64,000 bases of DNA from Diogma glabrata. Its lineage: Eukaryota; Arthropoda; Insecta; Diptera; Cylindrotomidae. Below the pieces are notes generated by a model. It had not been told where the DNA came from and did not search any database. It saw only the letters and a list, made by a program, of their open reading frames with translations. The translations under genes were made by a program, and so were the position numbers. The stretch lies in assembly GCA_963693315.1 (NCBI GenBank), contig OY856186.1, forward strand, positions 133,007,841 through 133,071,840, in the 5' to 3' direction. Of this stretch, positions 7,398 to 38,203 are shown one piece after another. Position 1 is the first letter of the stretch; every line of letters starts with the position of its first letter.

Positions 7398-7401
7398 TTA
7401 T

Positions 7402-12364: not shown

Positions 12365-13535
12365 TGTAACGTCCGCTATATTCGCCTAAACAATAATAAA
12401 ACCAATTCATCTTCTTTTTCTAATTCAATAAAAATTTATTTCCATAATTTCAGTTCATTTTTACATTAATAATAATTTCAAATTTTCCAACGGTCAGTAC
12501 AATTTCGAATAACAATTATAAAAACAAACGAACGTACCCAATTTTATTTCCAATTCTAACGAACAGATGTCGTTACTCAATTTTGTTTAATCTTGGGGTT
12601 GCACGATTTCATTAAAGAAAAGTAAAACAAAATGTGGAAGAAATCACATTTGGGCTGTCATTCGATTTTTACCTTTGAAATGAATTAAATGGTGATTTCT
12701 TGACAATTATTTTTGCAATGGTGGTCTCTTCGATTTCGTGATTTAAGTTAACAATTGGTGTACTAATTGAAAATAATAATTAAAATAAAAATTTGTGCAA
12801 TTTGTACCTCTTAATTTATTAAAAAGATGAATTGACCATGTTGTGAAGTGCTGTATGTATTGTCTCTGATAGTATCTGTGTGCCTCGTGTTAGGCAGGAT
12901 ATATCGCTTAATTGCCTTGTGTTAGGCATGAAATACTATCAGCTTATATGTCTCGTGTTAGGCAGAACATTAAACCATATTATCATTTTCAACATGTAAG
13001 CCTGTTAAGCTTAATATAAATCATAATTCTCATCAATTTATGATATCAACTAATTATATCAGCTGTATGCCCTGTGTTAAGCATACTACATTATTATTTC
13101 ATCATATTCAACATGTACACGGCTGTTAGGCCTAATATATCATCATAGTTATCATCAATTTGTCATATCAACTCAGTATTATCAACTGCTTTATGTATCA
13201 TCAGGTACCATCAATTTGTTATATTAACTGAATGCTATACAACCTGATAATTGGATAAACCATGCGGATGACCAGTCAACTGTCATCAATAAAAAAACCA
13301 AGTAAATTCATTTTTTTTGTATATTATTATTAAGACAAATTCTATAATGGTGATGCCAATGTAGGGCTAAAAAAACCATCTTTTTCATATAAGGGGTTCC
13401 CACCTCAAGATTCGTTTGGGACATTTTTGGTTCCCGGTAATATACGTGTAAATTTCCTTTATTTTTTTGTGATAAAAGTCCAAAGCCACGATACGTGGTG
13501 ATTACCATACGTGGCTCCGTATCAGAGCCATAACA
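12365..13535 (+). repeat. 5' LTR of gypsy 2
   Basis: The LTR starts TGTAACGTCC and ends CCATAACA. It is repeated at 33599-34784 with only a few substitutions and small indels, so insertion was recent. It is flanked by TGTT at 12361-12364, matching 34785-34788. The second half carries about six diverged copies of a stem-loop word, best seen as TGCCTCGTGTTAGGCA and TGCCTTGTGTTAGGCA (12880-13130). Confidence 0.93.
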
Positions 13536-15674: not shown

Positions 15675-15689
15675 ATGTCAAGCCAGTTA
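15675..15689 (+). pseudogene. First gag codons of gypsy 2, cut by the Polinton-like insertion
   Basis: An ATG at 15675 is followed by four codons and then the insertion point. The last six bases, CAGTTA (15684-15689), are the target duplication that recurs at 28391-28396, after which gag sequence resumes. Gypsy 2 was therefore inactivated within its start region by the insertion. Confidence 0.75.
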
Positions 15690-15728
15690 AGTAGTGTTAT
15701 GGGGGGTTCTGCACATAGACTAAAAATT

Positions 15729-16330
15729 ATGGGACTTTCTCACATGATGTATTAATTGATGTGGGAGGTCTAATAAGAAAAAAATATACGATGTAATTAA
15801 TTCAAATTGCATTGAGAAACTGAGTTTGAAAGAAAAACTAGAGAAAGTGATTTAAATCTTTTTTGTTGTTGTATCTTATAAGAAAAAATTCATTTTCGAT
15901 CCCACTATCTTTCATGTCGAATAAAAAAAAAAAATGGATTAATGCTATCTAAAAACAGAATGGATTGAAAATAAAATATAATAAAAGCATGTGAATTGAA
16001 TTTTGCATCATAACTTTTGTCTCGATATTATATTACAAAAATATGGGACTTTCTCACATGATGTGTTAAAGGTAACAAAAATTGTTTTTGTTGTAGTATT
16101 TTGTATTTTGTTTCGTAATTGCGTGCGGTTTTTTTTTTTGCGTTAATAAGAAAAAAATATACGAGTATGTTACATGAATGAAAAAACAAAACATTTGCTT
16201 TGAGTTTAAATCAATTTTTTTTTTGGTTGATAAGCTACAACAACAATTGCATTGAAATTATGGGACTTTCTCACATGATGTGTTAATTGATGTGGGAGGT
16301 TTAATAAGAAAAAAATATACGAGTATGTTA
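15729..16330. repeat. Subterminal repeats of the Polinton-like element (left)
   Basis: The word GGGACTTTCTCACATGATG occurs three times (near 15730, 16044 and 16261). Two of these are followed by TTAATTGATGTGGGAGGT and a stretch ending AAAAAATATACGA. Mirror copies lie at about 27750-28351. A 138-aa Asn/Lys-rich frame across this region (16206-16622 minus, 27455-27871 plus) is low complexity and diverges by frameshift between arms, so I regard the region as regulatory or terminal sequence rather than a gene. Confidence 0.7.
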
Positions 16331-16840
16331 CATGAATGAAAAAACAAAACATTTGCTTTGAGTTTAAATCAATTTTTTTTTTTGGTTGATCTTTGGTTGA
16401 TCTTGACCTTGTCTCGATATTATGACACTTTGTTGTTTTGTTATGTAAGATTTTAATTTTCTCGACAAAAAAAAATTGAAGATGTTCATGATATATTTTT
16501 TTGTAGGTAACAAAAATTGTTTTTGTTGTAGTTTTTTGTATTTTGTTTCGTAATTGCGTGCGGCTTTTTTTTTGCGTTAAATGATTAAGTATGATTTCGA
16601 TTTTTTTTTCATTGGGGCACATGTGTTGTTCTTGTTTTTTTGTTGTTATATAAGATTTTGTGTGTAAAGCGAGCAGAAGAATTAGAACAAATTGTGTTGG
16701 AAAAAATTATGATGTTTTGGAAACCTTAAAACTTTTTATTTGGAATTTTAGACGGATGCCTGAAATAAGTTGTTAATTGAAAAAACTAAAAAATTATAAA
16801 TAGATGTTCGAAATGGACCATATCATTTATTTCAAAAAAT

Positions 16841-17371
16841 ATGTTTAATGTGGAACAACCTTTTACCATGCAGATTTCTGGTCCTTCTTCTTCGGGGAAG
16901 ACCACGTTTGTATTAAAGTTCTTGCCACATATTCATGGTATAAAGAAACTGGTTTGGTGCAATGGTGAAACTAATTCGGTCGATCTAAAAGATTTCGATT
17001 TTGAAGATATTGAAGTGTTAGACAACGTCCCCGAAAATTTTGATAATCTAGAAAACACATTAATCATCTTGGATGATTTAATGACTGAGGCGTATAATAA
17101 AAACGTTTGTGAATTATTTCCCAAGGGTTCACATCATCGAAATATATCTGTTATATTAATTACCCAAAATGTGTTCCAAAGAAAATTTTACTGAGACATT
17201 TCGTTAAACTGCAAATACCTTGTTATGTTTAATAACCCCCGAGATAAATCTCAAATCTACCGCTTGCTAGACAAATTTATCCAGAAAATATCAACGAGTT
17301 TTGTAAGAGTATAAAAGAAGGCAGCTTCAAACGGGGTTTTGAAGCCAGCTGACCAAGGAAAAAGAAAATGA
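16841..17371 (+). pseudogene. Packaging ATPase (FtsK/HerA type), left copy
   Basis: The open part (16841-17194, 117 aa) starts MFNVEQPFTMQISG. Residues 14-21 (GPSSSGKT) are the Walker A loop and TLIILDDL near residues 72-79 is Walker B; VILITQN near residue 105 is the sensor-like strand. This is the genome-packaging ATPase of Polintons, adintoviruses and related double-jelly-roll viruses. Homology continues in the same frame past a TGA at 17192-17194 (DISLNCKYLVMFNNPRDKSQ) to a TAA at 17312-17314 and a final TGA at 17369-17371. The family is usually over 200 aa, so the copy is interrupted by two in-frame stops. Both stops are also in the right arm, so they predate or have been homogenised across the palindrome. 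Confidence 0.88.
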
Positions 17372-17977
17372 ACACTGCAATCTATCTAAGCTAATTGTTC
17401 TTGCAAAATATTGAAAACGTTTTGAAAATTAAGTACAATAGATTAATTTAGATTGAACATTATTTGAACATTATTTGATTAATTGTCTGAAAAATTTTAG
17501 ATTTAATTGTTTGGCATAGACACTGATACATCTGAATAGCGCGGTCTGTCGGTCAAGTTATTTCTGATGTTATGCAATAATGCAACAAGAAAAATATGAC
17601 AGAAAATTAATAATATAAAAGGTAATTAGCTTCTGATGTTGTTATTGTGTTTATCATATGTATTGGTTAGTTTTTTGTTTTGTTAATTTTTTTGTTTTCG
17701 TTTTCACATAGTTGTAATATATATATGTAATATAAATTTGCTGTCGCATTCGATGAGCTCTTAAGGAATTAGTAAATGTTATTCGTAGTATAGTAAATTG
17801 TTTTCAATGTTTTTTTTTGTCGTTTTTTGTCGTTGTGTTGACACATTTTTTTGTTGAATTCAAACTTTTTTTCTTAAGAATAAATATGAATTGTGTTGGA
17901 CGACATGTGACGATTAACTTTTTAGATTGATTATCTTTCTTAGTCGGATTGCTTCCTTAAGTTAAAACAAGAAGCAA
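17372..17977. other. AT-rich arm segment without a recognised gene
   Basis: About 600 bp, mirrored at about 26100-26700, with no frame or motif I can support. Confidence 0.5.
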
Positions 17978-18163
17978 GTGATTGACCGTCAAATGTTTCC
18001 ACTCAAATTGAAAAAGAAAACTTCATTAGGGAGTTTTGAGCATGAAGGGATTCATTTCTTTTTAATGCGCTTTGGGGTAAATTGGGACACAGAAATGATA
18101 AGAATCAGACGGGCCAAAACAAATTATTTTTTAATGACGATTAAAACAGTCAGTAAGGTATAA
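17978..18163 (+). CDS. Small ORF of 61 aa, left copy
   Basis: A 61-residue frame, MIDRQMFPLKLKKK..., is identical in protein to its mirror at 25912-26097. It is basic near the N terminus (KLKKK), with a central FLMRFGVNW and C-terminal MIRIRRAK. I do not recognise a family. Identity in both arms is expected from the palindrome and is not independent evidence of selection. It lies next to the GTSF1-like gene, tail to tail. Confidence 0.3.
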   Translation: MIDRQMFPLKLKKKTSLGSFEHEGIHFFLMRFGVNWDTEMIRIRRAKTNYFLMTIKTVSKV

Positions 18164-18189
18164 GATTTACAGTTAGTTATCTTTAAGTG

Positions 18190-18250
18190 TACGAGCTTTC
18201 CCTTTCTAACAAATGGATAGTTGATATAGACAGTAAACAAGAACGAACCA
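18190..18250. repeat. 60-bp direct repeat flanking the GTSF1-like gene (outer)
   Basis: Contains GCTTTCCCTTTCTAACAAA, TAGTTGAT and TAGACAGTAAACA. It recurs in the same orientation at 18918-18980, and in mirror form at about 25095-25155 and 25825-25885. The pair brackets the GTSF1-like gene in each arm, so it could be a promoter module, a terminator module or the scar of a captured segment. Confidence 0.7.
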
Positions 18251-18412
18251 TATTTAAGAGACTTTTTCAAAGGGTTTGATAAATAAAAAGCCATCATTTT
18301 TTGCTAACATTATATATTTTTCAAATTTATTATTTCTTTTATTTTATTTTATAGTTAATTATTAAAGTTTTTTCTATTATGATTATTAAAAATAACTGGG
18401 CCTAAGTTTTTT

Positions 18413-18752
18413 TCATTCGCTGCACCATTCGTCTTGTGTGGTGTGATTTTTGAATGAATCAAATACTTCTTTCCAAACCACCCGATCAGGGCAATTAAGA
18501 AGATGAATCTGTAAAAAGAAGAAAAAATGTTAAATCAAAATATTTATTAATTTGAGTATTAAGTTAACAAATTACCTCATAGTCTTCTTTTGGAATTACA
18601 TGGTAAATATTATATTTACACAAAATAACTTGTATTCCTGACGGCTGCTTGTCTTTACAAGTTTTAATGTGACGAAAGAACTTTCTCTAGGTTATTTGAT
18701 GATTCACATTGTATGGACATATATATTTTTTTACTCCTACCAAACTAGACAT
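18413..18752 (-). pseudogene. GTSF1-like CHHC zinc-finger gene, left copy (nonsense mutation)
   Basis: This is the mirror of the spliced gene at 25261-25662. It keeps both predicted introns, the start region and the stop position. However, the codon that is Tyr22 in the right copy is TAG here (18687-18689), inside the first zinc finger. All four zinc ligands of the first finger therefore cannot be made from one frame. This difference, in arms that otherwise almost match, shows that the mutation arose after the palindrome formed. Confidence 0.82.
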
Positions 18753-18917
18753 CTAAATATAAAAAATAAATCAATTAACGAAATAAAATTAAAATTTCAA
18801 TTTTAACTTACCATGTATATTGTTTTTTACTAATGTAAATTATTTCAGCCTTGTATCGTTCTTAAATACTAGATTTATCATACGTATCCCACATTTATCA
18901 TACGAATTCCTTAATGT

Positions 18918-18980
18918 ATATGCGCTTTCCCTTTCTAACAAAATGAATAGTTGATCTAGACAGTAAACAGGAACTAAACT
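18918..18980. repeat. 60-bp direct repeat flanking the GTSF1-like gene (inner)
   Basis: Second copy of the repeat at 18190-18250, with about 85% identity by eye. Confidence 0.7.
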
Positions 18981-19040
18981 ATGTAGTTGCTAGATGATAT
19001 GGAATTTACAAATGAAAAGCCAGTATCTGAACCATTTTTT

Positions 19041-19250
19041 TCTGAGAAACTTCAAACCATACCTTTCAATTGAAAAATTTTGCTACATTAACAATATCTA
19101 TAGAAGAATTATACAACATTTGACTGTGATTATTTTAAAATTTATGTCAAAAATGCTGCTTGAGTAGGCTTATGTAGATAATTTTGCAACTATAGATGTT
19201 TACTTGGTTAAAATCAGCTCCACATATAATTTAAAATCAAAAATAACCCC
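19041..19250. repeat. 210-bp direct repeat, copy A (left arm)
   Basis: It begins TCTGAGAAACTTCAAACCAT and ends in AATTTAAAATCAAAAAT. The second copy is at 19821-20030, 780 bp away in the same orientation; mirrors are at about 24040-24250 and 24825-25035. Its first 37 bp also occur outside the element at 47247-47286. Confidence 0.85.
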
Positions 19251-19820
19251 CAAAAATACTATAACAAATCCTATAATTACTCAGAAAACTATTTTTAAAA
19301 CATATTATCGAGTATTTTGCTTCTATTGGTTTTTGTTGCTTCATTAACATTTTGATAGAAGACTCCTGATAGAAGACTCATTTTCTTATCATTTTAAGTT
19401 GAAATATTTTAAACGAGAAAAAAATGCAGTTTTTTGCAAGAAATATTGAAAAAATAGAGCTCAAACATTTTGTATCTTACTTTAGTTTTCATAAGCCCAT
19501 TGTAAATGTTATTGATTTGGGGTGTTATTGATGTTATTGATTTCACCACTCGAAAAATGATAATTAAAAGATGCGATCAATTGTGAAGTGTAAGCAATGT
19601 TAATAAAGTTTGTCTTAAAGAATATGAACAGTATGAGCCCGCTAATAATTAATGACTTTTAAAAGAATGTAATATCTGTATTGGTCTAGAGCTTGGTAGT
19701 TTTTGGCTTTGATTCTCCAATATTAAAAAGACTACAAGACAGTATACAGAATGTAATATGTTTTTATTTCCACATTACGAAATTTCACTTCTTCCGAGCG
19801 GTGGGTCTCCCCGCACAACT

Positions 19821-20030
19821 TTTCTGAGAAACTTCAAACCATACCTTTAAATTGAAAAATTTTGCTACATTGACAATATCTATTGATGAATTATACAATA
19901 TTTGCCCGTTATAATTTTAAAATTTATGTCAAAAATGCTACTTGGGTAGGCTTATGTAGATAATTTTGCAACTATAGATGTTTATTTGGTTAAAATCATC
20001 ACCACAAATAATTTAAAATCAAAAATCTTC
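19821..20030. repeat. 210-bp direct repeat, copy B (left arm)
   Basis: Partner of 19041-19250 with about 90% identity by eye. A 64-aa frame (19986-20180, mirror 23886-24080) begins inside it. It contains TTIQQEKLDLPSFLGRIRKL and has no family I recognise. Confidence 0.85.
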
Positions 20031-20308
20031 GTCCATTGGTTGTTCTTCAGAATGGGGTTCAATTCTACTACAATACAACAAGAAAAACTTGATTTGCCAT
20101 CATTTCTTGGCAGGATTAGAAAACTCAATTCAATTAAAGCGGTTTTTTGCGAATATATTTTTTGGCCACGATTTAAATGATTCTAAACGTCTGTTAAAAT
20201 CTTTGTAGACGTTTAGACTGTGATACGCATTGCGACAAGGTGGCAAAACGGTTTGGCCTTAGCTGAAAGTGCTGGCTTGACTGGAATTTTTTCTGAAGTA
20301 TCTGATTT

Positions 20309-20533
20309 TTTTTTTTTTTGTAAGTTTTTTTTTTGTTTTATTTTTTTTTTTTTTGTTTTTTTTTTGTTAATTTTTTTTTTTCATTTTTTTTTTCTTCGTT
20401 TTTTTTTTCGTCGTTTTTTTTTTTGTTAATTTTTTTTTCATTTTTTTTTTCCTCGTTTTTTTTTTTGTGTTGTTTTTTTGTTTTGTTTTTTATTTTCATT
20501 TTAATTTTTTTTTTATTTTTTATTGTTTTTTTG
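20309..20533. repeat. Poly-T low-complexity tract (left arm)
   Basis: Over 200 bp of T runs broken by G, C or CGTCG. The mirror poly-A tract is at 23537-23760. Frames in it (Phe-rich or Lys-rich) are artefacts. Confidence 0.95.
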
Positions 20534-20559
20534 TGACAAAATGATAGCTTGTGACAAAA

Positions 20560-21024
20560 CTTTGACAAAATGGCTTGGCCATTGGCTGAACAATCTGCTG
20601 AATTCAGAAGAGTCTGAATATCATAACGATAATGAAGAAGGCAATCCAGAAGGAAATTATGGCTATTCCTGTGTTGGCGACATGACTGGTATTTTGATTT
20701 TGGTAAAAAAAGATATTTGGTAGAACGTGTTATAGTCAGAATGAAGAATCCGAGGACGAAGTTGATTTAGAAGAGTCTGAATATCATAACGATAATGAAG
20801 AAGGCAATCCAGAAGGAAATTATGGCAACGAAGAGGACCAACTATATTTTGTAACTTCGAGTGAAGAAAGCGATGACGATTTGTTGTTCACACCGTTTAC
20901 AGCAAAACACACATCTCCAAGATCTTCGTCGATTCATTCAAATTCACGTTTCGCCCATTTGCAGCTGCAAATTTACAGACTGGAACAGCAGCTGCTGCGG
21001 CAACAACAACAGCACCAACGGTGA
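20560..21024 (+). pseudogene. Acidic repeat protein, frameshifted, spanning the left arm/centre boundary
   Basis: Two copies of an acidic motif, EESEYHNDNEEGNPEGNYG, lie at about 20608-20661 and 20770-20823 but in different frames. The second continues through EEDQLYFVTSSEESDDDLLF into a Ser-rich stretch and a Gln-rich coiled-coil-like tail (RLEQQLLRQQQQHQR), ending at TGA 21022-21024. No ATG opens the second frame, so the gene is broken or spliced in a way I cannot see. The arm homology ends inside this gene, so the mirror copy (about 23207-23500) lacks the tail. Function unknown. Confidence 0.5.
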
Positions 21025-21114
21025 CGACAGCCGATCCGATTAGGACAAATAAAAACTCTAACACGAAATTATTATTATTATTAAAGCATTTAAAATTTTT
21101 TATTTTTATTTGAA

Positions 21115-21705
21115 TCAAGTCGTTTTTAAATATTTTTTCCCAATCACATCTTTTATTCTGCACTCAATTTTATGTTTTAGCTCTTTTAAACATTTTGGTG
21201 CAATATCCCAGTAAATATTTGAATTGTCTTCTAAACACTGATTGAAAATTTTAAGCATGATTTGGTCCTCCATATTGGACGGCTGCTGTTGATTAGGCAA
21301 ATAGGTGTATATGCCCTTTTCAGTTTCTCCAGTGTAAAATTCGGTAATTTTTCGTGTTGGATCTACTATCTTATTATTAAATTCATTCCAAAAGTGTACG
21401 CCGATATTTATAACAGTATTGTTTTTATTGTATTGAAGGTGTCCAACAACTAATTTAGATTCTAAGTTATATTTTTTTAATGTTGTCCACAGGATTAAGT
21501 TAGCTGGAAGACAAACACCATATTTACGTGCACTAATAAATTCTTGCGAAATTATTTCGGAGATTAAATTTAGCAACACCAGATTTCGTTTTAAATTATT
21601 ATTCGAAATCATAGCAATCATATTCGTGGACGTACAAATAACAAATGAAATAGATGGTTGAGAGTAACACCAATTTATCAAGTTTTCAAAAAGCTTAAAT
21701 AACAT
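21115..21705 (-). CDS. Transglutaminase-like/papain-fold protein (putative)
   Basis: A 196-aa frame. Residues 62-69 (YGVCLPAN) put a Cys (C65) at the start of a predicted helix, VVGHLQY (86-92) follows as a strand, and VHFWNEF (103-109) holds H104, followed by VDPT (114-117) with D115. This C...H-x-W-x-E...DP order and spacing is typical of the transglutaminase-like and related papain-fold families, where Cys, His and Asp form the catalytic triad. It is not the His-Glu-Cys order of the adenain-type protease usual in Polintons. The start overlaps the stop of a small upstream frame as TAATG. The C-terminal third is Lys-rich with no motif. It could be a protease, a deamidase or a catalytically different relative; only the fold-level similarity is supported. 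Confidence 0.55.
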   Translation of the reverse strand: MLFKLFENLINWCYSQPSISFVICTSTNMIAMISNNNLKRNLVLLNLISEIISQEFISARKYGVCLPANLILWTTLKKYNLESKLVVGHLQYNKNNTVINIGVHFWNEFNNKIVDPTRKITEFYTGETEKGIYTYLPNQQQPSNMEDQIMLKIFNQCLEDNSNIYWDIAPKCLKELKHKIECRIKDVIGKKYLKTT

Positions 21706-21896
21706 TAAAGCAATAAATCAATTAAGAAAAGAAGAATACAATCTTCAAAATTTGTTTTAGTTTGGCCAAATTTCACAAATTGTTTGAGGAAATCACGATT
21801 TCGAAATTTTTTTCTTGCTTGTTTGCGTAATTCGTTTATCGCTTCTTGGCGCTCCATTTTGATTAAAGTTATTGGTTGTTCTAATAGCTTCCACAC
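21705..21896 (-). CDS. Small basic ORF upstream of the transglutaminase-like gene
   Basis: A 63-aa frame, or 50 aa if the second Met (residue 14, MERQEAINELRKQARKK) is used. That N-terminal part is a strongly basic amphipathic helix; the C terminus is hydrophobic (ILLFLIDLLL). Its stop TAA and the downstream ATG share one base (TAATG), an arrangement that in some viruses allows termination-coupled reinitiation. No family recognised; it could also be the 5' part of the same gene after a frameshift. Confidence 0.4.
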   Translation of the reverse strand: MWKLLEQPITLIKMERQEAINELRKQARKKFRNRDFLKQFVKFGQTKTNFEDCILLFLIDLLL

Positions 21897-22163
21897 GACG
21901 CTGGTTATTTATAAATGTTCAATGCTGTTGATCAAATAGTAAGTGTTGATAAATTCATTTGATTATAGTTTATTAAGTTCTTTTCAACTGAGTTCTTCAC
22001 AGTACAATATGGAGAGGTTAGTTAACGAAAAAGTTAAGAAGTAAGAAATGCGTAAACCAGATTTATTGCTATTTTATGTTTATTTTTTAAACGACAATAA
22101 ATCATGTTTTATTGTAATTGGCTGCAATACAGAAATTTTTCAAACCTCAACTATTGTTGATCA

Positions 22164-22337
22164 ATGATAAAGATTTTATTTGCCTTACTTGGCGTGACTG
22201 GTATCTATTTTTCAACCAAATTGGATAAGTTCAACAATATTTTGAGGAAGATGACATCGAAAAATTCAAATAGAGAAGAATGGAGAAGAATGGGGCAGAT
22301 TGCAAGAGTTAGCACCTTTGATTCGCTCAATATTTAG
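22164..22337 (+). CDS. Small membrane protein, 57 aa
   Basis: The frame starts MIKILFALLGVTGIYFSTKL. Residues 3-16 form a hydrophobic segment that could be a signal anchor. The rest is polar and basic, including KMTSKNSNREEWRRMGQI, and it ends with TAG at 22335-22337. Size and layout resemble the small single-span proteins common in viruses. No homologue is recognised, and the frame is short enough to be fortuitous. Confidence 0.35.
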   Translation: MIKILFALLGVTGIYFSTKLDKFNNILRKMTSKNSNREEWRRMGQIARVSTFDSLNI

Positions 22338-22514
22338 CTGGTAAAGGCTAACTTACAAGGATGTAAGAGCCTATTACAATTTATATATGCAAAAATGTGT
22401 TCGGAAAAGTTTCTTATTAGTTGATTGCACACTTTTACTTACATTGAACATGTTTGATCATGTTTACAATCTGAAAGAGTTTATTTTTGGGTCGTTCACC
22501 TTTTTTTTAGTCTT

Positions 22515-22700
22515 TTAGCTAAAGTATTTTTTAAAGGAAAAATTCGCGATCAGATCGTTGTAATCAGTCATGTTTGTTTTTAATCCATTTTCAAATTGTT
22601 TCATTGGTTTTCCACTACACTGGTTTACCGTTTGATGAAAAATCTGGTGAAAGACCATACGAAAGCTGAAAAACTGTACAAGAGCAGTGAAAATCTTCAA
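22515..22700 (-). CDS. Doubtful 61-aa ORF
   Basis: The frame begins MKIFTALVQFFSFRMVFHQI, hydrophobic at the N terminus, followed by a polar tail. It lies between the PPP1R15-like gene and the membrane protein and fills the otherwise empty interval 22338-22859. No family recognised. Chance is a fair explanation. Confidence 0.2.
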   Translation of the reverse strand: MKIFTALVQFFSFRMVFHQIFHQTVNQCSGKPMKQFENGLKTNMTDYNDLIANFSFKKYFS

Positions 22701-22859
22701 TTTTACCTGAGTTTTAATTTATTTTTTTTTTTAGTTTTTAATTTTTATTTCCCTTGAATCTTACAAGTAAATGATCTTATTTCAAATAAGTTAGTGGTTT
22801 ACATTTAAAAGCATATAAATAATTTATTCTACAACATAAATTAAATGGATATGTGCGTT

Positions 22860-23093
22860 CTAATTTTCAAAATGCATCATGAACCTAGTTTTAAAAATAA
22901 TTTCACGGTGATTTTGTGTTAAAATTGTTGAGATTATTGATTCAATATTTTTTATACGCCTTTGAAACCTATTTCTATCACTTGCATGTTCTTCATAACG
23001 CCCCATTCGAGCAGCTCTGTAGGCGAAATTCCATACATACATAACATGCACTTCTAACTTATTAGAAAAGCGTACGGTTTTTATTTCTGTCAT
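22860..23093 (-). CDS. PPP1R15/GADD34-like PP1 regulatory protein, 77 aa
   Basis: Starting at the ATG at 23093, the product has 77 residues. Residues 5-9 (KTVRF) are an RVxF-type PP1-docking motif, followed by SNKLEVH and V-x-x-V-W (W21). Residues 27-43 (AARMGRYEEHASDRNRF) and 44-47 (QRRI) match the conserved segment through which PPP1R15 proteins (GADD34, CReP) and their viral relatives (herpesvirus ICP34.5, asfarvirus DP71L) bring PP1 to eIF2-alpha. The expected role is dephosphorylation of eIF2-alpha, restoring translation under PKR/PERK/GCN2-type stress. I chose this Met because upstream codons of the same frame (to 23273) run into the right arm, antisense to the acidic gene. The short length resembles short viral members rather than long cellular ones. 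No defect seen. Confidence 0.85.
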   Translation of the reverse strand: MTEIKTVRFSNKLEVHVMYVWNFAYRAARMGRYEEHASDRNRFQRRIKNIESIISTILTQNHREIIFKTRFMMHFEN

Positions 23094-25260
23094 TTCAGTT
23101 GTTTTTTCTTTAAAAAACTTATAAATGATAAGCAGTTTTACAGCACACTTGAAACTGTTATATGAATATCGTACACCTTGAAAAAAATAAAGAATGACAA
23201 TCTCCTCTCGAAGCTGCAAAATATAGTTGGTCCTCTTCGTTGCCATAATTTCCTTCTGGATTGCCTTCTTCATTATCGTTATGATATTCAGACTCTTCTA
23301 AATCAACTTCGTCCTCGGATTCTTCATTCTGACTATAACACGTTCTACCAAATATCTTTTTTTACCAAAATCAAAATACCAGTCATGTCGCCAACACAGG
23401 AATAGCCATAATTTCCTTCTGGATTGCCTTCTTCATGATCGTTATGATATTCAGACTCTTCTGAATTCAGCAGATTGTTCAGCCAATGGCCAAGCCATTT
23501 TGTCAAAGTTTTGTCACAAGCTATCATTTTGTCACAAAAAAACAATAAAAAATAAAAAAAAATTAAAATGAAAATAAAAAACAAAACAAAAAAACAACAC
23601 AAAAAAAAAAACGAGGAAAAAAAAAAATGAAAAAAAAAATTAACAAAAAAAAAAAACGACGAAAAAAAAAACGAAGAAAAAAAAAATGAAAAAAAAAAAT
23701 TAACAAAAAAAAAACAAAAAAAAAAAAATAAAACAAAAAAAAAACTTACAAAAAAAAAAATCAGATACTTCAGAAAAAATTCCAGTCAAGCCAGCACTTT
23801 CAGCTAAGGCCAAACCATTTTGCCACCTTGTCGCAATGCGTATCACAGTCTAAACGTCTACAAAGATTTTAACAGACGTTTAGAATCATTTAAATCGTGG
23901 CCAAAAAATATATTCGCAAAAAACCGCTTTAATTGAATTGAGTTTTCTAATCCTGCCAAGAAATGATGGCAAATCAAGTTTCTCTTGTTGTATTGTAGTA
24001 GAATTGAACCCCATTCTGAAGAACAACCAATGGACGAAGATTTTTGATTTTAAATTATTTGTGGTGATGATTTTAACCAAATAAACATCTATAGTTGCAA
24101 AATTATCTACATAAGCCTACCCAAGTAGCATTTTTGACATAAATTTTAAAATTATAACGGGCAAATATTGTATAATTCATCAATAGATATTGTCAATGTA
24201 GCAAAATTTTTCAATTTAAAGGTATGGTTTGAAGTTTCTCAGAAAAGTTGTGCGGGGAGACCCACCGCTCGGAAGAAGTGAAATTTCGTAATGTGGAAAT
24301 AAAAACATATTACATTCTGTATACTGTCTTGTAGTCTTTTTAATATTGGAGAATCAAAGCCAAAAACTACCAAGCTCTAGACCAATACAGATATTACATT
24401 CTTTTAAAAGTCATTAATTATTAGCGGGCTCATACTGTTCATATTCTTTAAGACAAACTTTATTAACATTGCTTACACTTCACAATTGATCGCATCTTTT
24501 AATTATCATTTTTCGAGTGGTGAAATCAATAACATCAATAACACCCCAAATCAATACCATTTACAATGGGCCTATGAAAACTAAAGTAAGATACAAAATG
24601 TTTGAGCTCTATTTTTTCAATATTTCTTGCAAAAAACTGCATTTTTTTCTCGTTTAAAATATTTCAACTTAAAATGATAAGAAAATGAGTCTTCTATCAG
24701 GAGTCTTCTATCAAAATGTTAATGAAGCAACAAAAACCAATAGAAGCAAAATACTCGATAATATGTTTTAAAAATAGTTTTCTGAGTAATTATAGTATAT
24801 ATAGGATTTATTATAGTATTTTTGGGGGTTATTTTTGATTTTAAATTATATGTGGAGCTGATTTTAACCAAGTAAACATCTATAGTTGCAAAATTATCTA
24901 CATAAGCCTACTCAAGCAGAATTTTTGACATAAATTTTAAAATAATCACAGTCAAATGTTGTATAATTCTTCTATAGATATTGTTAATGTAGCAAAATTT
25001 TTCAATTGAAAGGTATGGTTTGAAGTTTCTCAGAAAAAAATGGTTCAGATACTGGCTTTTCATTTGTAAATTCCATATCATCTAGCAACTACATAGTTTA
25101 GTTCTTGTTTACTGTCTAGATCAACTATTCATTTTGTTAGAAAGGGAAAGCGCATATACATTAAGGAATTCGTATGATAAATGTGGGATACGTATGATAA
25201 ATCTAGTATTTAAGAACGATACAAGGCTGAAATAATTTACATTAGTAAAAAACAATATAC

Positions 25261-25662
25261 ATGGTAAGTTAAAATTGAAATTTTAATTTTATTTCGTTAA
25301 TTGATTTATTTTTTATATTTAGATGTCTAGTTTGGTAGGAGTAAAAAAATATATATGTCCATACAATGTGAATCATCAAATAACCTACAGAAAGTTCTTT
25401 CGTCACATTAAAACTTGTAAAGACAAGCAGCCGTCAGGAATACAAGTTATTTTGTGTAAATATAATATTTACCACGTAATTCCAAAAGAAGACTATGAGG
25501 TAATTTGTTAACTTAATACTCAAATTAATAAATATTTTGATTTAACATTTTTTCTTCTTTTTACAGATTCATCTTCTTAATTGCCCTGATCGGGTGGTTT
25601 GGAAAGAAGTATTTGATTCATTCAAAAATCACACCACACAAGACGAATGGTGCAGCGAATGA
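25261..25662 (+). CDS. GTSF1-like double CHHC zinc-finger protein (spliced, intact)
   Basis: Two GT-AG introns are predicted: 25264-25322 (donor GTAAGT directly after an ATG) and 25500-25566 (acceptor TTTTTACAG). Coding exons are 25261-25263 (optional), 25323-25499 and 25567-25662; from the second ATG the product is 90 residues. Ligands C12, H18, H28, C32 and C45, H51, H61, C65 both give C-x5-H-x9-H-x3-C, the CHHC finger of U11-48K and GTSF1/Asterix proteins. The last two ligands appear only after removal of intron 2, which supports the splicing. The tail has two Trp (residues 71 and 87) in an acidic context, as in GTSF1, where Trp residues contact PIWI. GTSF1 is a cofactor of PIWI-piRNA silencing. 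Here it sits in a virus-like element and probably modulates that pathway. Alternative: another CHHC RNA-binding protein, for example tRNA- or U11-related. Confidence 0.85.
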
Positions 25663-25911
25663 AAAAAACTTAGGCCCAGTTATTTTTAATAATCATAATA
25701 GAAAAAACTTTAATAATTAACTATAAAATAAAATAAAAGAAATAATAAATTTGAAAAATATATAATGTTAGCAAAAAATGATGGCTTTTTATTTATCAAA
25801 CCCTTTGAAAAAGTCTCTTAAATATGGTTCGTTCTTGTTTACTGTCTATATCAACTATCCATTTGTTAGAAAGGGAAAGCGCGTACACTTAAAGATAACT
25901 AACTGTAAATC

Positions 25912-26097
25912 TTATACCTTACTGACTGTTTTAATCGTCATTAAAAAATAATTTGTTTTGGCCCGTCTGATTCTTATCATTTCTGTGTCCCAATTTACCC
26001 CAAAGCGCATTAAAAAGAAATGAATCCCTTCATGCTCAAAACTCCCTAATGAAGTTTTCTTTTTCAATTTGAGTGGAAACATTTGACGGTCAATCAC
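25912..26097 (-). CDS. Small ORF of 61 aa, right copy
   Basis: Mirror of 17978-18163 with the same protein sequence. It is convergent with the GTSF1-like gene (stop at 25662). No family recognised. Confidence 0.3.
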   Translation of the reverse strand: MIDRQMFPLKLKKKTSLGSFEHEGIHFFLMRFGVNWDTEMIRIRRAKTNYFLMTIKTVSKV

Positions 26098-26705
26098 TTG
26101 CTTCTTGTTTTAACTTAAGGAAGCAATCCGACTAAGAAAGATAATCAATCTAAAAAGTTAATCGTCACATGTCGTCCAACACAATTCATATTTATTCTTA
26201 AGAAAAAAAGTTTGAATTCAACAAAAAAATGTGTCAACACAACGACAAAAAACGACAAAAAAAAAAACATTGAAAACAATTTACTATACTACGAATAACA
26301 TTTACTAATTCCTTAAGAGCTCATCAAATGCGACAGCAAATTTATATTACATATATATATTACAACTATGTGAAAACGAAAACAAAAAAATTAACAAAAC
26401 AAAAAACTAACCAATACATATGATAAACACAATAACAACATCAGAAGCTAATTACCTTTTATATTATTAATTTTCTGTCATATTTTTCTTGTTGCATTAT
26501 TGCATAACATCAGAAATAACTTGACCGACAGACCGCGCTATTCAGATGTATCAGTGTCTATGCCAAACAATTAAATCTAAAATTTTTCAGACAATTAATC
26601 AAATAATGTTCAAATAATGTTCAATCTAAATTAATCTATTGTACTTAATTTTCAAAACGTTTTCAATATTTTGCAAGAACAATAAGCTTAGATAAATTGC
26701 AGTGT

Positions 26706-27236
26706 TCATTTTCTTTTTCCTTGGTCAGCTGGCTTCAAAACCCCGTTTGAAGCTGCCTTCTTTTATACTCTTACAAAACTCGTTGATATTTTCTGGATAA
26801 ATTTGTCTAGCAAGCGGTAGATTTGAGATTTATCTCGGGGGTTATTAAACATAACAAGGTATTTGCAGTTTAACGAAATGTCTCAGTAAAATTTTCTTTG
26901 GAACACATTTTGGGTAATTAATATAACAGATATATTTCGATGATGTGAACCCTTGGGAAATAATTCACAAACGTTTTTATTATACGCCTCAGTCATTAAA
27001 TCATCCAAGATGATTAATGTGTTTTCTAGATTATCAAAATTTTCGGGGACGTTGTCTAACATTTCAATATCTTCAAAATCGAAATCTTTTAGATCGACCG
27101 AATTAGTTTCACCATTGCACCAAACCAGTTTCTTTATACCATGAATATGTGGCAAGAACTTTAATACAAACGTGGTCTTCCCCGAAGAAGAAGGACCAGA
27201 AATCTGCATGGTAAAAGGTTGTTCCACATTAAACAT
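26706..27236 (-). pseudogene. Packaging ATPase (FtsK/HerA type), right copy
   Basis: Mirror of 16841-17371. The open part is 27236-26883 (117 aa), with the same Walker A and Walker B motifs and the same in-frame TGA and TAA. It differs from the left copy by Met for Val near residue 52 (IEMLDN versus IEVLDN). It reads outwards-in from the right end, as the left copy does from the left end. Confidence 0.87.
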
Positions 27237-27749
27237 ATTTTTTGAAATAAATGATATGGTCCATTTCGAACATCTATTTATAATTTTTTAGTTTTTTCAA
27301 TTAACAACTTATTTCAGGCATCCGTCTAAAATTCCAAATAAAAAGTTTTAAGGTTTCCAAAACATCATAATTTTTTCCAACACAATTTGTTCTAATTCTT
27401 CTGCTCGCTTTACACACAAAATCTTATATAACAACAAAAAAACAAGAACAACACATGTGCCCCAATGAAAAAAAAATCGAAATCATACTTAATCATTTAA
27501 CGCAAAAAAAAGCCGCACGCAATTACGAAACAAAATACAAAAAACTACAACAAAAACAATTTTTGTTACTTACAAAAAAATATATCATGAACATCTTCAA
27601 TTTTTTTTTGTCGAGAAAATTAAAATCTTACATAACAAAACAACAAAGTGTCATAATATCGAGACAAGGTCAAGATCAACCAAAGATCAACCAAAAAAAA
27701 AAAATTGATTTAAACTCAAAGCAAATGTTTTGTTTTTTCATTCATGTAA

Positions 27750-28351
27750 CATACTCGTATATTTTTTTCTTATTAAACCTCCCACATCAATTAACACATC
27801 ATGTGAGAAAGTCCCATAATTTCAATGCAATTGTTGTTGTAGCTTATCAACCAAAAAAAAAATTGATTTAAACTCAAAGCAAATGTTTTGTTTTTTCATT
27901 CATGTAACATACTCGTATATTTTTTTCTTATTAACGCAAAAAAAAAAACCGCACGCAATTACGAAACAAAATACAAAATACTACAACAAAAACAATTTTT
28001 GTTACCTTTAACACATCATGTGAGAAAGTCCCATATTTTTGTAATATAATATCGAGACAAAAGTTATGATGCAAAATTCAATTCACATGCTTTTATTATA
28101 TTTTATTTTCAATCCATTCTGTTTTTAGATAGCATTAATCCATTTTTTTTTTTATTCGACATGAAAGATAGTGGGATCGAAAATGAATTTTTTCTTATAA
28201 GATACAACAACAAAAAAAGATTTAAATCACTTTCTCTAGTTTTTCTTTCAAACTCAGTTTCTCAATGCAATTTGAATTAATTACATCGTATATTTTTTTC
28301 TTATTAGACCTCCCACATCAATTAACACATCATGTGAGAAAGTCCCATAAT
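27750..28351. repeat. Subterminal repeats of the Polinton-like element (right)
   Basis: Mirror of 15729-16330. Three copies of CATCATGTGAGAAAGTCCC lie near 27800, 28017 and 28330. Confidence 0.7.
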
Positions 28352-28390
28352 TTTTAGTCTATGTGCAGAACCCCCCATAACACTACTACT

Positions 28391-30102
28391 CAGTTAGACG
28401 TTGACCATCCGTTCTATGGTCTGGAACCCACCGAGCTGCAGGTCGAATGTTTGGTTCGGGGTGTGGACTTCAGGGGGTCGATTGGGCGCAGGAACTGCGA
28501 AACCATGCAGATCATGGGTCAGTTCCAATAACAGTGTCTCATGCGAGAGATTTGATAGAGGAATCTCAAATGGTGGTGCAGGCAGCACAACTTATTTTAA
28601 ATCAAGTACGACGACTTCGGCCACCGATTAATCAGACCTTCTTAGATGGTTTGGCGAAACGAGTGTTACATTACACGGGTAGGATGAATAGGTTGGGTCC
28701 TCGCAATGACTTGCAAGAAGCCCGTACCTACGCTATCTCGCAATTGTCACGCGCCTGGGATATAATAGGATCACTGTCAACACGTCCAGTTATGCAGAAT
28801 AAACCAGGAGTATCATCTGCTTCACTTGCTTTTCAACCAGATGAGAGATCCACACCGATCCCAGTACGGCCAATATCGGAAACAATACATAGTCTGAATC
28901 GTCCAAACCAGCAACAACAGAGACGGTCAGATCAAGCACCACCGGCTTATTTCCAGCAATCGGGCTTGAGAGCAGAGGACTTTGCAATACCACAATTGGG
29001 TCCAACATTCCAAGCTGAACACTTACACAACAATCCAGCATTGGTACAACAACAATTATTAAATCGTTCATCAGTACCACAGGTACAACCACTACCAGTA
29101 TATCCACCAGTTCCACTAACAGCACCACCACCGTACAACCAACCTCCTCAGGTATGGCGTGACGCGGCTCCAGCGTTAGCACCAGTGGAGTACCGAGGGG
29201 TTCGTGGGAACAATTTGAGTCGTTATGACTCAAATTGGGTTCCAACCTTCACAGGGGATGGTCACTCTCTTGATGTTCATGAGTTTATTCATAGAGTGGA
29301 GGCGGCTGCCAGAAGAGACCGTGTGTCATGGGACGACCTTAGGTCTATCATACCACGGTATCTGAAAGCAGCGGCCGACAGATACTATTTGAATTTAACT
29401 CATGAATATGAGGTGGTGACTTACCCAGTGCTAAGGGAGGGACTCCTACAAACCTTCGGTACGCTCACTGATGATAAGGCGATCTTGCGAGTTCTTCTGA
29501 ACCGTAAACAAAAGTCAAAGGAGAGCGTGTATGAGTACCTAGTGGAGATTGGTTCGTTAAACCGTCGCTTAGCACGTCCATTTGCTGATCGTGAAATGCT
29601 GGAGATTGCTCGGGAGGGACTGAGTGTGGAGCTCAAAAACGCTACTCTAGCTGCTACCATACATTCAATTGATGAACTTCGGACTTTATGTCAGAAGTTT
29701 GAACGTTTGTGGTCCACACCAGTTCCGACCAGAACATCAAATTTGAGAATTAGCGAGCTACAGCAGATGGATGATTATGAGGTGGAAGTTGAACCAGAAC
29801 AACATGGATATATTGAAGCGGTGGATTCAACACCGAGACGGATAGTGTGTTTCAGATGTGGAGTAAACGGTCATCGAGCTCCTGAGTGCTCTAAGAATAG
29901 AATTAAATTATATTGTTGGAAATGTAACAAGCCGGATGTAATTTATGCAAATTGTTCATATTGTCACCCGTCGTTAAACTACCGTCCGAGAGTACATGCT
30001 TTGGGGATGGTACCCTCGGTTCAACATCCAATGAGCCCGAAGAAATCGACGAGAGATGTAGGAACGCAGGACGATCGGCAACCACCAACGAAACCCGAAT
30101 AA
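28391..30102 (+). pseudogene. Gypsy 2 gag (downstream part)
   Basis: Gag resumes after the Polinton-like insertion. The long open frame is 28447-30102 (551 aa). It has a Pro/Gln-rich middle (about residues 150-250), the conserved retrotransposon capsid-like region with YDSNWVPTFTGDGHSLDVHE and FIHRVEAAARRDRVSWDDLR, and a nucleocapsid with one CCHC knuckle (CFRCGVNGHRAPEC, about residue 468). A second Cys cluster, C-x2-C-x9-C-x2-C, follows. The frame of the original ATG at 15675 meets a stop near 28530, so besides the insertion there is a frameshift in the first 50 codons. It is the structural protein of virus-like particles. Confidence 0.85.
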
Positions 30103-33598: not shown

Positions 33599-34784
33599 TG
33601 TAACGTCCGCTATATTCGCCTAAACAATAATAAAACCAATTCATCTTCTTTTTCTAATTCAATAAAAATTTATTTCCATAATTTCAGTTCATTTTTACAT
33701 TAATAATAATTTCAAATTTTCCAACGGTCAGTTCAATTTCGAATAACAATTATAAAAACAAACGAACGTACCCAATTTTATTTCCAATTCTAACGAACAG
33801 ATGTCGTTACTCAATTTTGTTTAATCTTGGGGTTGCACGATTTCATTAAAGAAAAGTAAAACAAAATGTGGAAGAAATCACATTTGGGCTGTCATTCGAT
33901 TTTTACCTTTGAAATGAATTAAATGGTGATTTCTTGACAATTATTTTGCAATGGTGGTCTCTTCGATTTCGCGATTTAAGTTAACAATTGGTGTACTAAT
34001 TGAAAATAATAATTAAAATAAAAATTTGTGCAATTTGTTAAAAGTTTTGTAACTCTTAATTTATTAAAAAGATGAATTGACCATGTTGTGAAGTGCTGTA
34101 TGTATTGTCTCTGATAGTATCTGTGTGCCTCGTGTTAGGCAGGATATATCGCTTAATTGCCTTGTGTTAGGCATGAAATACTATCAGCTTATATGTCTCG
34201 TGTTAGGCAGAACATTAAACCATATTATCATTTTCAACATGTAAGCCTGTTAAGCTTAATATAAATCATAATTCTCATCAATTTATGATATCAACTAATT
34301 ATATCAGCTGTATGCCCTGTGTTAAGCATACTACATTATTATTTCATCATATTCAACATGTACACGGCTGTTAGGCCTAATATATCATCATAGTTATCAT
34401 CAATTTGTCATATCAACTCAGTATTATCAACTGCTTTATGTATCATCAGGTACCATCAATTTGTTATATTAACTGAATGCTATACAACCTGATAATTGGA
34501 TAAACCATGCGGATGCAGACACCAGTCAACTGTCATCAATAAAAAACCAAGTAAATTCATTTTTTTTGTATATTATTATTAAGACAAATTCTATAATGGT
34601 GATGCCAATGTAGGGCTAAAAAAACCATCTTTTTCATATAAGGGGTTCCCACCTCAAGATTCGTTTGGGACATTTTTGGTTCCCGGTAATATACGTGTAA
34701 ATTTCCTTTATTTTTTTGTGATAAAAGTCCAAAGCCACGATACGTGGTGATTACCATACGTGGCTCCGTATCAGAACCATAACA
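33599..34784 (+). repeat. 3' LTR of gypsy 2
   Basis: Partner of 12365-13535; it starts TGTAACGTCC and ends CCATAACA, followed by TGTT (34785-34788). It has a 15-bp segment (AAAAGTTTTGTAA region near 34040) absent from the 5' copy and three to four other small differences. The stem-loop words TGCCTCGTGTTAGGCA recur at 34126-34380. Confidence 0.93.
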
Positions 34785-35209: not shown

Positions 35210-36444
35210 GTTTTTTACAGGGTTGTTAATATACACGTATAAAACGTTTTATACGTTACACGTATAATACGTGATGTATAAAACGTATATAATGTATAAA
35301 ACGTATATGTAATATGTTTTTGTTTTTGAAATGCATTCATAAAAATTAAAAATAGTTCTTACTTCAGATATTAATTATATTTTTTATTTTCATACTCAGT
35401 AAAAATATAATTAGGTAGTTATAAATTATTTATATATTTTATAATTTATAAAAAAAACTATTTGTTTGGAATTTTCTTTTCTTATTCTTTCGAATAGGTC
35501 CTTTGATACCTCTATATTAAAATAATAAAAATAAATAATTAATGTTTTATACAAATTCTTAAAAAGCAAACAAAAATGGTAGTCTGTGTACTGACCGGCC
35601 TGCCAACCAACCGTAACAACCGATGAAAACTACTAGAGCGATCTTAAAATTTTTTGTTTCAGAAAATAGTTTTCATCAATGATAAGAACCGCAGGGACGA
35701 ATCGGAAAATTGTAAAAAAAATGGCATATTTATTTTGCGGTAAGATGATATTGATATTAAGCAGTAAGATTGAATGTAGAGAAATCTTGAAAGTTGGCAT
35801 TTGAATGTAAAACCAGGAGCTTGATTATTATAAGTGTGTCAAAAGAATGATGAATGAAATAAATTAATTTTGATTCCAAATTTTTTTGACAAACATTTAC
35901 TTAATGGGAAACATTTTGGATTAGAAACGTTTGGCCCATAATAGCTATTTATGTATTAAGGGCATAAAGTATGCCTTTTCCGCTTGAGAGTGAAATTGTT
36001 GCTCAAGGCGTTAGCCGAGAGAAACATCACTCGAAAGCAAAAAGATATTTTATGACTGAATTGCATACAAGATTTTTTGTACGAGTAAGATTCTGTACTA
36101 TTTGCATAAATAAAAATGCATATATTTGCACAAAATAGTAAATTATTTATTTAGAAAATTATTTTATCCAAGCAGTTTTTCGAAATAACAACTTTAGTCA
36201 TTGTTATTTCAATTTAAGGCATTGTTATTTCAATTTTGGCATTGTTATTTCAATAGGAAAAAAAGGCCTGCTTTACGAACACTTTTTGAATCCCAAAAGT
36301 GCATTTTACGGTTTACTAGTACAAAAAATTAATTATTTGGTATCATGAAATGTTATTGAATTTATGAAATAACGTTAAATCCAGCTTCAACTACTCTCTA
36401 TCTAATAAGACTTTTAAAATATTATGTTGTTGCAGAATAAAAGT

Positions 36445-37630
36445 TTTTACACACTTTTATTTAACTTGACTCTTGAGAGCTTTGATGGGTGGAATTTTGT
36501 GATTCATTTTTCAGTAACTTCCCATTATGTGATTGATCCCAAATTGAAAAGACACGTTTGTTGAAGCAGTCAGTACGTATTTCTAAAACTTTTAAAGCAA
36601 AAAACTTTATAAATCTGAAGAAAAATAATTCAAATTTTTCTTCATTCTGAAAGAGCTTAAAAAATTGCACTGAAATCCTCATCCTCTGGTTGACTCACTT
36701 TGAGCGAAGGAATTTTGGTAATACTCTGTATATCATTATAATCATAGACATCATACATGTTTGTGTTATTTCATATGGATAAAAGGCCTTATATTATAAA
36801 TAACGAACACAAAAAAAATAAAAGTATGACATTTCGTTCAAAGCATATAGACCTTTTTTCTTAAAGTTCAAATCGTTATTTTGGTGTATTTGACAGATTA
36901 CATACAGCAATGATAATTAAAAATCAGTTATTATGTATGAAAATATGAAAATCCATAAGATCTGAATGCACATTTACCGCGCTGAAGTTTTGCTCATACT
37001 GAGTATCTCATTATAATAGAGGACATATTATATTTTGTCATTTTTATATGAAAAAATGGCCTTAAATTGTAAATAATTAGTGATTTGTATTTCGAAAATT
37101 TTAAATAATTGTTATTTCTTCTAAATCCAGATTGTTTTGTATTCTCGTAAAGTTTTTTTTACTATAGTTGCATAGTTATTATTTTTTCAATACATTTTAA
37201 TACATAATTAATGATTTCTAATTATCATTGCTGTATGTAATCTGTCAATTACATACAGTAATATAACGATTCGAATTTTAAGGAAAAAGCTCTATAATTC
37301 AGACCTTTTTTCCGAAAAAAACTTGACATTTGGTGTATGTTCGCACCTAATGTTTGCATTTAATAATTTATGTACAACTTATAATTAATACAATGAGCAA
37401 AGAAACGTACTAAAATTTTACACTGGATGTTTAAATAACATAATTACAATTGTTATAGTGCAATTAACCTTATTAAAATTACTTTAAATTTCAAAGAATA
37501 TTAAATTTTCGGTAAGTGATTTAATTGCTAGTTTTACTTATGGTGTATTTTCTGTGAAATAATGTGGTTAACTTATTTGTAGGTAAAATTATATAACTAA
37601 AAACTCTAAAATAAAAAAAAAATTAAAAAA
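36445..37630. repeat. 1.19-kb repeat unit, copy 1
   Basis: Present in inverted orientation at 53315-54500. It contains an internal imperfect palindrome built around ATTACATACAGCAATGATAA (36890-36930 versus 37215-37260) and a diverged duplication of the segment ending in AAAGGCCTTATATTATAAAT / AATGGCCTTAAATTGTAAAT. A 73-aa frame (36461-36682 minus; 54263-54484 plus) is preserved with a handful of substitutions but has no motif. Confidence 0.85.
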
Positions 37631-38203
37631 CACACTTTTTGAAAAACGAGCTAAAAAGTAGAAAATAAATTTTGCATTAACACCAGCGTTATGTCTTTTA
37701 TAATTATATTTCCTTTGAAATTGTTAGAAGAAAAAATATTTAAATGGTATTTAACACATCTTAGCATAGATGCAAATATTAAATTTTTGACTAATTTAAA
37801 ATGCTAATTTTCGATTGACAAACAGTTTTCCGTTCCCATTTGTTACATAAAATAAAAGTGGGTGGCGCATTCAGAAAGGTAAGGGAATAAACGTTGGTAG
37901 TCTCTCTTGTTAGAGATTAACATAGAATACATTTGTTCCTTTTCTATATTAATGTATGCGTCACCCACTTTTATTTTATGTAACAAATGGGAACGGAAAA
38001 CTGTTTGTCAACCGAAAATTAGCATTTTAAATTAGTCAAAAATTTAATATTTGCATCTATGCTAAGATGTGTTAAATACCATTTAAATATTTTTTCTTCT
38101 AACAATTTCAAAGGAAATATAATTATAAAAGACATAACGCTGGTGTTAATGCAAAATTTATTTTCTACTTTTTAGTTCGTTTTTCAAAAAGTGTGTTTTT
38201 TTC
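37627..38203. mobile_element. Foldback MITE, copy 1
   Basis: A palindrome with arms of about 234 bp (37631-37864 and 37962-38195) and a loop of about 97 bp. The arm ends read CACACTTTTTGAAAAACG. The second copy is at 52753-53314. No coding content. Confidence 0.9.

Follow-up and report, generated by a model that had tools for sequence, protein, structure and literature searches.

Some viruses encode proteins that blunt siRNA silencing, and the question arises whether transposons counter piRNA silencing in a comparable way. HSV ICP34.5 is a viral mimic of PPP1R15, an adaptor that brings PP1 to eIF2alpha for dephosphorylation. Mavericks of nematodes, i.e., virus-like transposons, are said by Widen et al. 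to carry cargo genes that do not act in replication. The element described here, which lies in a window of 64,000 nucleotides (the whole stretch of DNA that was analyzed) from the dipteran Diogma glabrata, resembles the nematode elements in this respect but differs in its cargo, a homologue of a PIWI-pathway cofactor and a PPP1R15-like protein, and it is a concrete multi-copy candidate that would act at the GTSF1-PIWI step.

GTSF1/Asterix proteins are small and contain two tandem CHHC zinc fingers of the same spacing. For mouse GTSF1 the accessible part of one study reports that both RNA binding and the enhancement of PIWI cleavage require R26, R29, K36 and K39 and that PIWI binding requires W98, W107 and W112 (PMC9385479), and the available sections of two sources ascribe PIWI binding to aromatic residues behind the fingers (PMC9385479, PMC9539491). 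According to the available text of the latter, C. elegans GTSF-1 is without the RNA-binding residues and is a scaffold with a normal host role (PMC9539491), so that loss of these residues alone does not mean antagonism. The element protein shares the two fingers, their spacing and the small size with GTSF1/Asterix, and with the host gene it has in common the place of a phase-0 intron in finger 2 as well as the KE-[IV]-FD motif and the D-x-W end of the aromatic tail. It differs in having only 25 amino acids after the last zinc ligand, in a finger 2 without CP start, in three non-basic residues at the four RNA-binding positions and in being encoded within a mobile element present in many copies.

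Vertebrate Mavericks have (AGT)2//(ACT)2 ends and 6-bp target site duplications (TSDs) and, when intact, intronless open reading frames, as described in the accessible part of PMC8097293. In common with Polintons/Mavericks (adintovirus-like), the D. glabrata element has (AGT)n ends, a 6-bp TSD, an A32-type ATPase and PolB-bearing relatives in the same genome, but its ATPase is broken, no PolB was recognized in it, it is a near-palindrome with 5.2-kb arms, and its cargo gene has predicted introns. The sequence-only reading knew of no GTSF1 encoded by a virus or transposon, and no description of a Polinton-borne GTSF1 was found in the open-licence literature; the accessible part of PMC11125864, which names both GTSF1 and Polinton, draws no connection between them. 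No Polinton-borne PPP1R15 was found in the open-licence literature.

A Near-Palindromic Derivative of a Polinton

The element is 12.7 kb long (Table 1). Its arms are 99.15% identical over 5194 columns with 21 mismatches and 12 gap openings when the window is aligned against itself by blastn. The left end reads AGTAGTG and the right end ACTACTACT, which in reverse is AGTAGTAGTG; the AGT/ACT ends and the TSD CAGTTA match the ends and TSDs given for vertebrate Mavericks (accessible part of PMC8097293). The ATPase is broken by a stop in both arms. Pfam searches with 17 protein sequences taken from the element identified neither a PolB nor an integrase or capsid gene, for which reason it is classed as a non-autonomous derivative. 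The earlier description as a Polinton-like element thus holds for the type, given the TSD, the AGT/ACT ends and the A32-type ATPase, and has to be given up for a complete virus-like element, as this is a non-autonomous near-palindrome with a broken ATPase. The terminal 331 bases of the element fold no better than shuffled sequences (z=0.83), no relative of the ATPase protein was found in IMG/VR, and searches with NCBIfam and PHROGs gave nothing useful.

Table 1. Features of the element and its surroundings, in positions of the window.
Feature	Positions	Strand	Remarks
Polinton-derived non-autonomous element, near-palindromic	15690..28390		inverted arms, end motifs, TSD
TSD CAGTTA, left	15684..15689		6 bp
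TSD CAGTTA, right	28391..28396		6 bp
Left inverted arm	15690..20867		blastn, window against itself
Right inverted arm	23201..28390		alignment stops at 28387; a further ACT unit forms the last three bases
A32-type packaging ATPase remnant, left arm	16790..17194	+	PF04665 E=1.9e-7; 203 homologues at E<=0.001
A32-type packaging ATPase remnant, right arm	26883..27287	-	internal stop; left-arm twin matches PF04665
GTSF1-like gene, open copy	25261..25662	+	exons 25261-25263, 25323-25499, 25567-25662; splicing predicted
Intron 2 of the open copy, phase 0	25500..25566	+	same place in finger 2 as host GTSF1 intron (L007)
Mirror GTSF1-like copy, left arm	18413..18814	-	tblastn; finger 1 interrupted by one premature stop
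68-bp direct repeat upstream of the gene	25098..25165	+	88% identical to 25828-25894
68-bp direct repeat downstream of the gene	25828..25894	+	pairs with 25098-25165
PPP1R15 (GADD34/CReP)-like protein, 137 aa	22860..23273	-	PF10488 27.1 bits, cut-off 26.1
196-aa protein	21115..21705	-	one sequence relative, P0121, 52%
Ty3/gypsy LTR (the element is nested inside this gypsy)	12365..13535		98% identical to 33599-34784
Other LTR of the same Ty3/gypsy element	33599..34784		self-alignment

A GTSF1-Like Gene in Both Arms

The gene had been proposed to contain two GT-AG introns and to encode two zinc fingers of identical spacing followed by two tail tryptophans. Both introns are present (25264-25322 and 25500-25566, splicing being predicted), and the predicted spliced product of 91 amino acids has the fingers C13-x5-H19-x9-H29-x3-C33 and C46-x5-H52-x9-H62-x3-C66, i.e., all eight zinc ligands, as well as Trp72 and Trp88 in the tail. 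Finger 1 opens with CP, finger 2 with CK instead of the usual CP. Intron 1 directly follows the single ATG codon of exon 1, and as exon 2 starts with an ATG of its own only intron 2 is required for the protein; its prediction is independently supported by the host GTSF1 gene, which has an intron at the same place. The sequence-only reading had missed that the gene lies inside the 5.2-kb inverted arm and consequently has a mirror copy. The gene is thus present twice in the element, open on the right and prematurely stopped on the left by one TAG (genome search rows C1:133026407, C1:133026494).

The assignment to the GTSF1 family was borne out by profile and sequence searches. The spliced product matches PF05253 (zf-U11-48K) in two stretches with E=3e-11 and 43.4 bits (cut-off 21.1), and the exon-2 frame alone, 62 amino acids that involve no splicing choice, matches Pfam with E=5.7e-9 and 36.1 bits. 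Among the sequences of solved structures, GTSF1 6x46 is the best match (E=3.6e-8), followed by GTSF1 9nhb (E=9.2e-4), U11-48K reaches E=0.15 and TRM13 is absent from the nine matches, so that by sequence GTSF1 is the best CHHC match in the PDB, ahead of U11-48K. The bare pattern C-x5-H-x9-H-x3-C occurs three times in the six frames of the window, as finger 1 of the gene and as one unrelated match in both LTRs of the gypsy element, and in none of 60 simulated windows. That a gene of the GTSF1 family lies inside a Polinton-derived element is hardly in doubt. No homologue of the spliced product was found in 5.8 billion predicted proteins, among which intron-split genes may escape, and no relative of the exon-2 protein in IMG/VR. 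DNA patterns for one and a half fingers gave no match with a TGT start and five with a TGC start, none of them real, as all five contain internal stops.

Probable Uptake of the Gene as DNA

GTSF1 is encoded by the host genome itself (L007), together with a short paralogue that has no intron (L008). In finger 2 of L007 a predicted phase-0 intron lies between the eighth and the ninth of the nine residues that separate the two histidines, and intron 2 of the element lies at the same place and in the same phase, for which reason the gene was most likely taken up as DNA; it is not a processed copy, since the intron is kept at the host's place. In the finger region the element protein is identical to L007 at 16/54, to L008 at 20/53, to 6x46 at 17/54 and to 9nhb at 13/53 positions, and these low values point to an old or distant capture. 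L008, located at G000:C1:125556860-125557030 on the minus strand approximately 7.5 Mb from the window, has two fingers and almost no tail.

Copies of the Gene and Full Polintons in the Genome

The genome searched comprises 1.33 Gb. With the 416-bp gene as query, 40 of 241 candidates were scored, all near-identical, and the 19 other near-identical copies that were fetched all differ from the window copy by one single base, which is always the same. With the exon-2 protein as query, 150 of 246 candidates were scored and all 150 match with 85-100% identity, distributed over many small contigs and three or more large ones. Exon 2 is free of stops in 143 of these 150 copies and interrupted in seven, in a ranking that favors open copies and with 96 candidates unscored. 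The scored loci include 50 outward-facing pairs (100 copies) within 15 kb; their median spacing is 6757 bp. Not one neighboring pair within 15 kb faces inward, which shows the palindrome to be a trait of the family.

For the ATPase 150 of 629 candidates and for PolB 73 of 490 were scored; 81 of the listed ATPase matches were used for pair arrangement and the top 64 for proximity to PolB. Among these 64, 18 have a listed PolB (of the 73) within 20 kb, in 17 cases on the opposite strand; judged by these matches, full Polintons with PolB exist in the same genome. In all eight fetched loci with an intact ATPase, homology to the window element is confined to the part outward of 26745/26746. The alignment segment containing the ATPase shares 84.5-97.5% identity with the window, the value for L069 being 97.5% over 768 bp. 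This boundary of homology indicates that the derivative is a Polinton end with a truncated ATPase joined to a cargo segment. An open reading frame beside the intact ATPases may at most be a capsid gene, an identity for which no Pfam or PDB match was found.

None of the 73 listed PolBs (of 490 candidates) lies within 30 kb of the 150 GTSF1-like copies, which speaks against a regular presence of the gene in full Polintons. At two loci (C3:254192273 and C4:224953998) the GTSF1-like and 196-aa genes share one strand with an intact ATPase, and the spacings at the two loci are nearly equal (2640 and 2620, then 6295 and 6217 bases). Three older copies (C4:41384562, C4:41820926 and C1134:37949) have a stop-free ATPase on the same strand at 16.6-22.9 kb and a PPP1R15-like sequence next door, with one stop in each.

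Signs of Constraint on the Fingers

Selection was analyzed in 20 diverged loci (L072-L091), chosen from the diverged end of the ranked list, together with the window copy; L085 was dropped because of a codon insertion, and 20 of the 21 sequences were kept, 17 of them distinct. The pN/pS ratio of exon 2 is 0.35 in the 17 distinct sequences. Changes common to at least two of the 17 sequences comprise six nonsynonymous and seven synonymous ones (p=0.016 against a neutral expectation of 77% nonsynonymous), while private changes comprise 26 nonsynonymous and four synonymous ones, as neutral decay predicts (p=0.94), and the two classes differ (Fisher p=0.009); the sequences are related, the counts small and the p values nominal. 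Mean pairwise divergence rises from 0.042 in exon 2 through 0.060 in intron 2, 0.132 in intron 1 and 0.144 in exon 3 to 0.22-0.26 in the roughly aligned flanks. This pattern suggests purifying selection on exon 2. During the movements of the lineage the fingers seem to have stayed constrained, and the tail to a lesser degree. The GTSF1-like gene is probably useful to the element.

RNA-Binding Positions and the Aromatic Tail

At the positions of R26/R29/K36/K39 of mouse GTSF1, L007 has L/R/K/K, L008 I/R/K/K, 9nhb E/R/K/K and the window copy T/K/T/D. R29, K36 and K39 are thus kept in four cellular relatives, and two of these three are lost in the window copy, in which one position of the four, K25, is basic; in the older copies all four are non-basic (20 of 20). 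In the window-type sequence Lys occupies one RNA-binding position and one other place in finger 1 at which Asn is found in the 16 remaining distinct exon-2 sequences. Further basic residues are kept in finger 1 of the window copy, namely R24, R28, K31 and K34.

The tail of the window copy reads KEVFD...DEW, compared to KEIFD...DNW in the host, and is the most variable coding part (exon 3 compared to exon 2, see above). Seven of the 20 older copies show no clean full alignment of the tail (L074, L081, L082, L086, L087, L089 and L091). L072 has a stop in the tail, L073 and L074 are without Trp72, and L075, L084 and L090 contain insertions.

Neighboring Cargo Genes

The PPP1R15-like protein contains the PP1-binding region of PPP1R15 (PF10488), just over the cut-off, and matches PPP1R15A (7nzm, E=3.9e-7) and ASFV DP71L (9nb9, E=5.2e-5). 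It shares this region with viral mimics of PPP1R15 such as DP71L but differs from them in its location, an animal Polinton-derived element in which it lies beside a GTSF1-like gene. In the genome 150 of 524 candidates for PPP1R15-like sequences were scored, and 10 of the first 41, i.e., those with at least 90% identity, have a stop in the matched stretch. Furthermore, a second, PolB-bearing Polinton family has PPP1R15-like sequences of approximately 53% identity adjoining its ATPase, for example at C1:291965386 beside the ATPase C1:291964184 and the PolB C1:291954911; these putative genes have stops in their matched stretches, which may lie ahead of the actual start. From these matches the PPP1R15-like gene would seem to occur regularly in these Polintons. 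No relative of the protein was found in IMG/VR.

For the 196-aa protein, a low-confidence structure model (pLDDT 60) has weak Foldseek look-alikes in BFVD from entomopoxvirus and Tupanvirus (E=1.8e-5 and 1.7e-4) and no PDB match at E<=0.001, and no sequence relative was found in IMG/VR. The protein is possibly transglutaminase-like, as judged from its relative, which has a Pfam hit below the threshold (E=0.21). The 196-aa gene also forms outward-facing pairs with 74-79% identity, for example at C3:238820755/238824875, C4:66860588/66864679 and C1:317698534/317701214, none of them beside any of the 150 listed GTSF1-like copies. Polintons may have given rise to palindromic derivatives on more than one occasion.

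Possible Roles of the Captured Gene

At the sequence level, the gene family, the element type, the multiplication and the common intron position are established. On this basis we propose that a Polinton lineage would long ago have taken up a GTSF1-like gene as DNA, including the finger-2 intron, and carried it as cargo beside the PPP1R15-like gene, and that a near-palindromic non-autonomous derivative spread widely, presumably moved by enzymes of the full Polintons that share its end. The encoded protein would bind host PIWI proteins through its aromatic tail and, unable to give the RNA contact of GTSF1, would compete with host GTSF1 and weaken the germline piRNA silencing of the element, and the PPP1R15-like protein would counter translational shut-off. 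The complete explanation, from captured cargo through the spread of the derivative to a PIWI decoy, is tentative and stands at somewhat below an even chance. That the GTSF1-like protein acts on the PIWI/GTSF1 step at all is somewhat more likely than not, and that it acts there as an antagonist, i.e., as a decoy, is possible but somewhat doubtful. The largely lost RNA-binding positions, the host-like tail of the window copy and the signs of selection on exon 2 fit a PIWI decoy and do not show it; the poorly kept tail in part of the older copies counts against it, and RNA binding may persist, because finger 1 keeps basic residues and K25 occupies one RNA-binding place. More doubtful again is the far-reaching version, in which a mobile element of viral descent would have turned a piRNA cofactor into a PIWI-binding decoy without RNA contact, at perhaps 250 loci, and paired it with an eIF2alpha-phosphatase adaptor in a two-gene counter-defence module.

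The other readings are all unlikely, to different degrees. The gene might be a functionless passenger, copied because it lies inside a successful non-autonomous element; recent multiplication alone would explain why the 19 near-identical copies share one base difference, and one of the two window copies is broken. However, the shared changes of the older copies are depleted in amino-acid changes while the private ones are not, exon 2 is less diverged than its introns and flanks, and most scored copies are stop-free in exon 2, subject to the ranking bias and the unscored candidates noted above; an unlikely case is left for a passenger, albeit the best among these alternatives. Slightly less probable is a helper, a true GTSF1 that raises PIWI activity against competing transposons or keeps the element harmless enough to persist, for which the fingers, the host-like tail and the window-type lysines (asparagine in the 16 other sequences) speak; three of the four RNA-contact positions are nevertheless non-basic in the window-type sequence, and stronger silencing would be of little gain to a mobile element. 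The matched host proteins L007 and L008 in the same genome allow a side-by-side comparison with the element protein.

An RNA-binding factor of the element's own, unrelated to PIWI and acting for example in packaging or splicing, is more improbable than a helper, as two tandem fingers with a tail are the GTSF1 layout and U11-48K is matched so poorly, although basic residues remain in finger 1 and all three CHHC protein groups bind structured RNA according to the accessible part of PMC9539491. If the arms were transcribed through, a long hairpin would form that is able to feed small RNAs against full Polintons, and the palindrome itself could be the active part, its 5-kb read-through hairpin feeding small-RNA silencing of these elements. 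The arm structure, the end and ATPase sequence common to arms and full Polintons (84.5-97.5%, eight loci), the 50 outward pairs among the 150 scored loci and the further outward pairs of the 196-aa gene agree with an active hairpin, but the exon-2 counts would be left unexplained, and it is given the lowest probability of these four. An ordinary host GTSF1 paralogue or an assembly artefact merely near the element is next to impossible: the host does have GTSF1 and its short paralogue, yet the gene lies within TSD-bounded sequence and in both arms, 150 scored loci match it, 100 of them in the same paired arrangement, and its identity to both host proteins is low. The element also illustrates how genes directed at the host, in place of those for replication, can form the core of a non-autonomous derivative of a virus.

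Further Repeats in the Window

The two 68-bp direct repeats that bracket the gene may represent a shared promoter or a trace of gene insertion; their core motifs occur four times in the window, flanking both gene copies. A second set of direct repeats lies near the GTSF1-like gene at 24040-24246 and 24831-25037. The LTRs of the surrounding gypsy element align with 4 mismatches and 4 gap openings. Outside the Polinton derivative, a further pair of inverted repeats of 1.77 kb with 96% identity is located at 36444-38200 and 52748-54501, and the frame 7303-8385, which may be the end of a Penelope-type reverse transcriptase with a GIY-YIG motif, is flanked by an inverted repeat of 0.7 kb.
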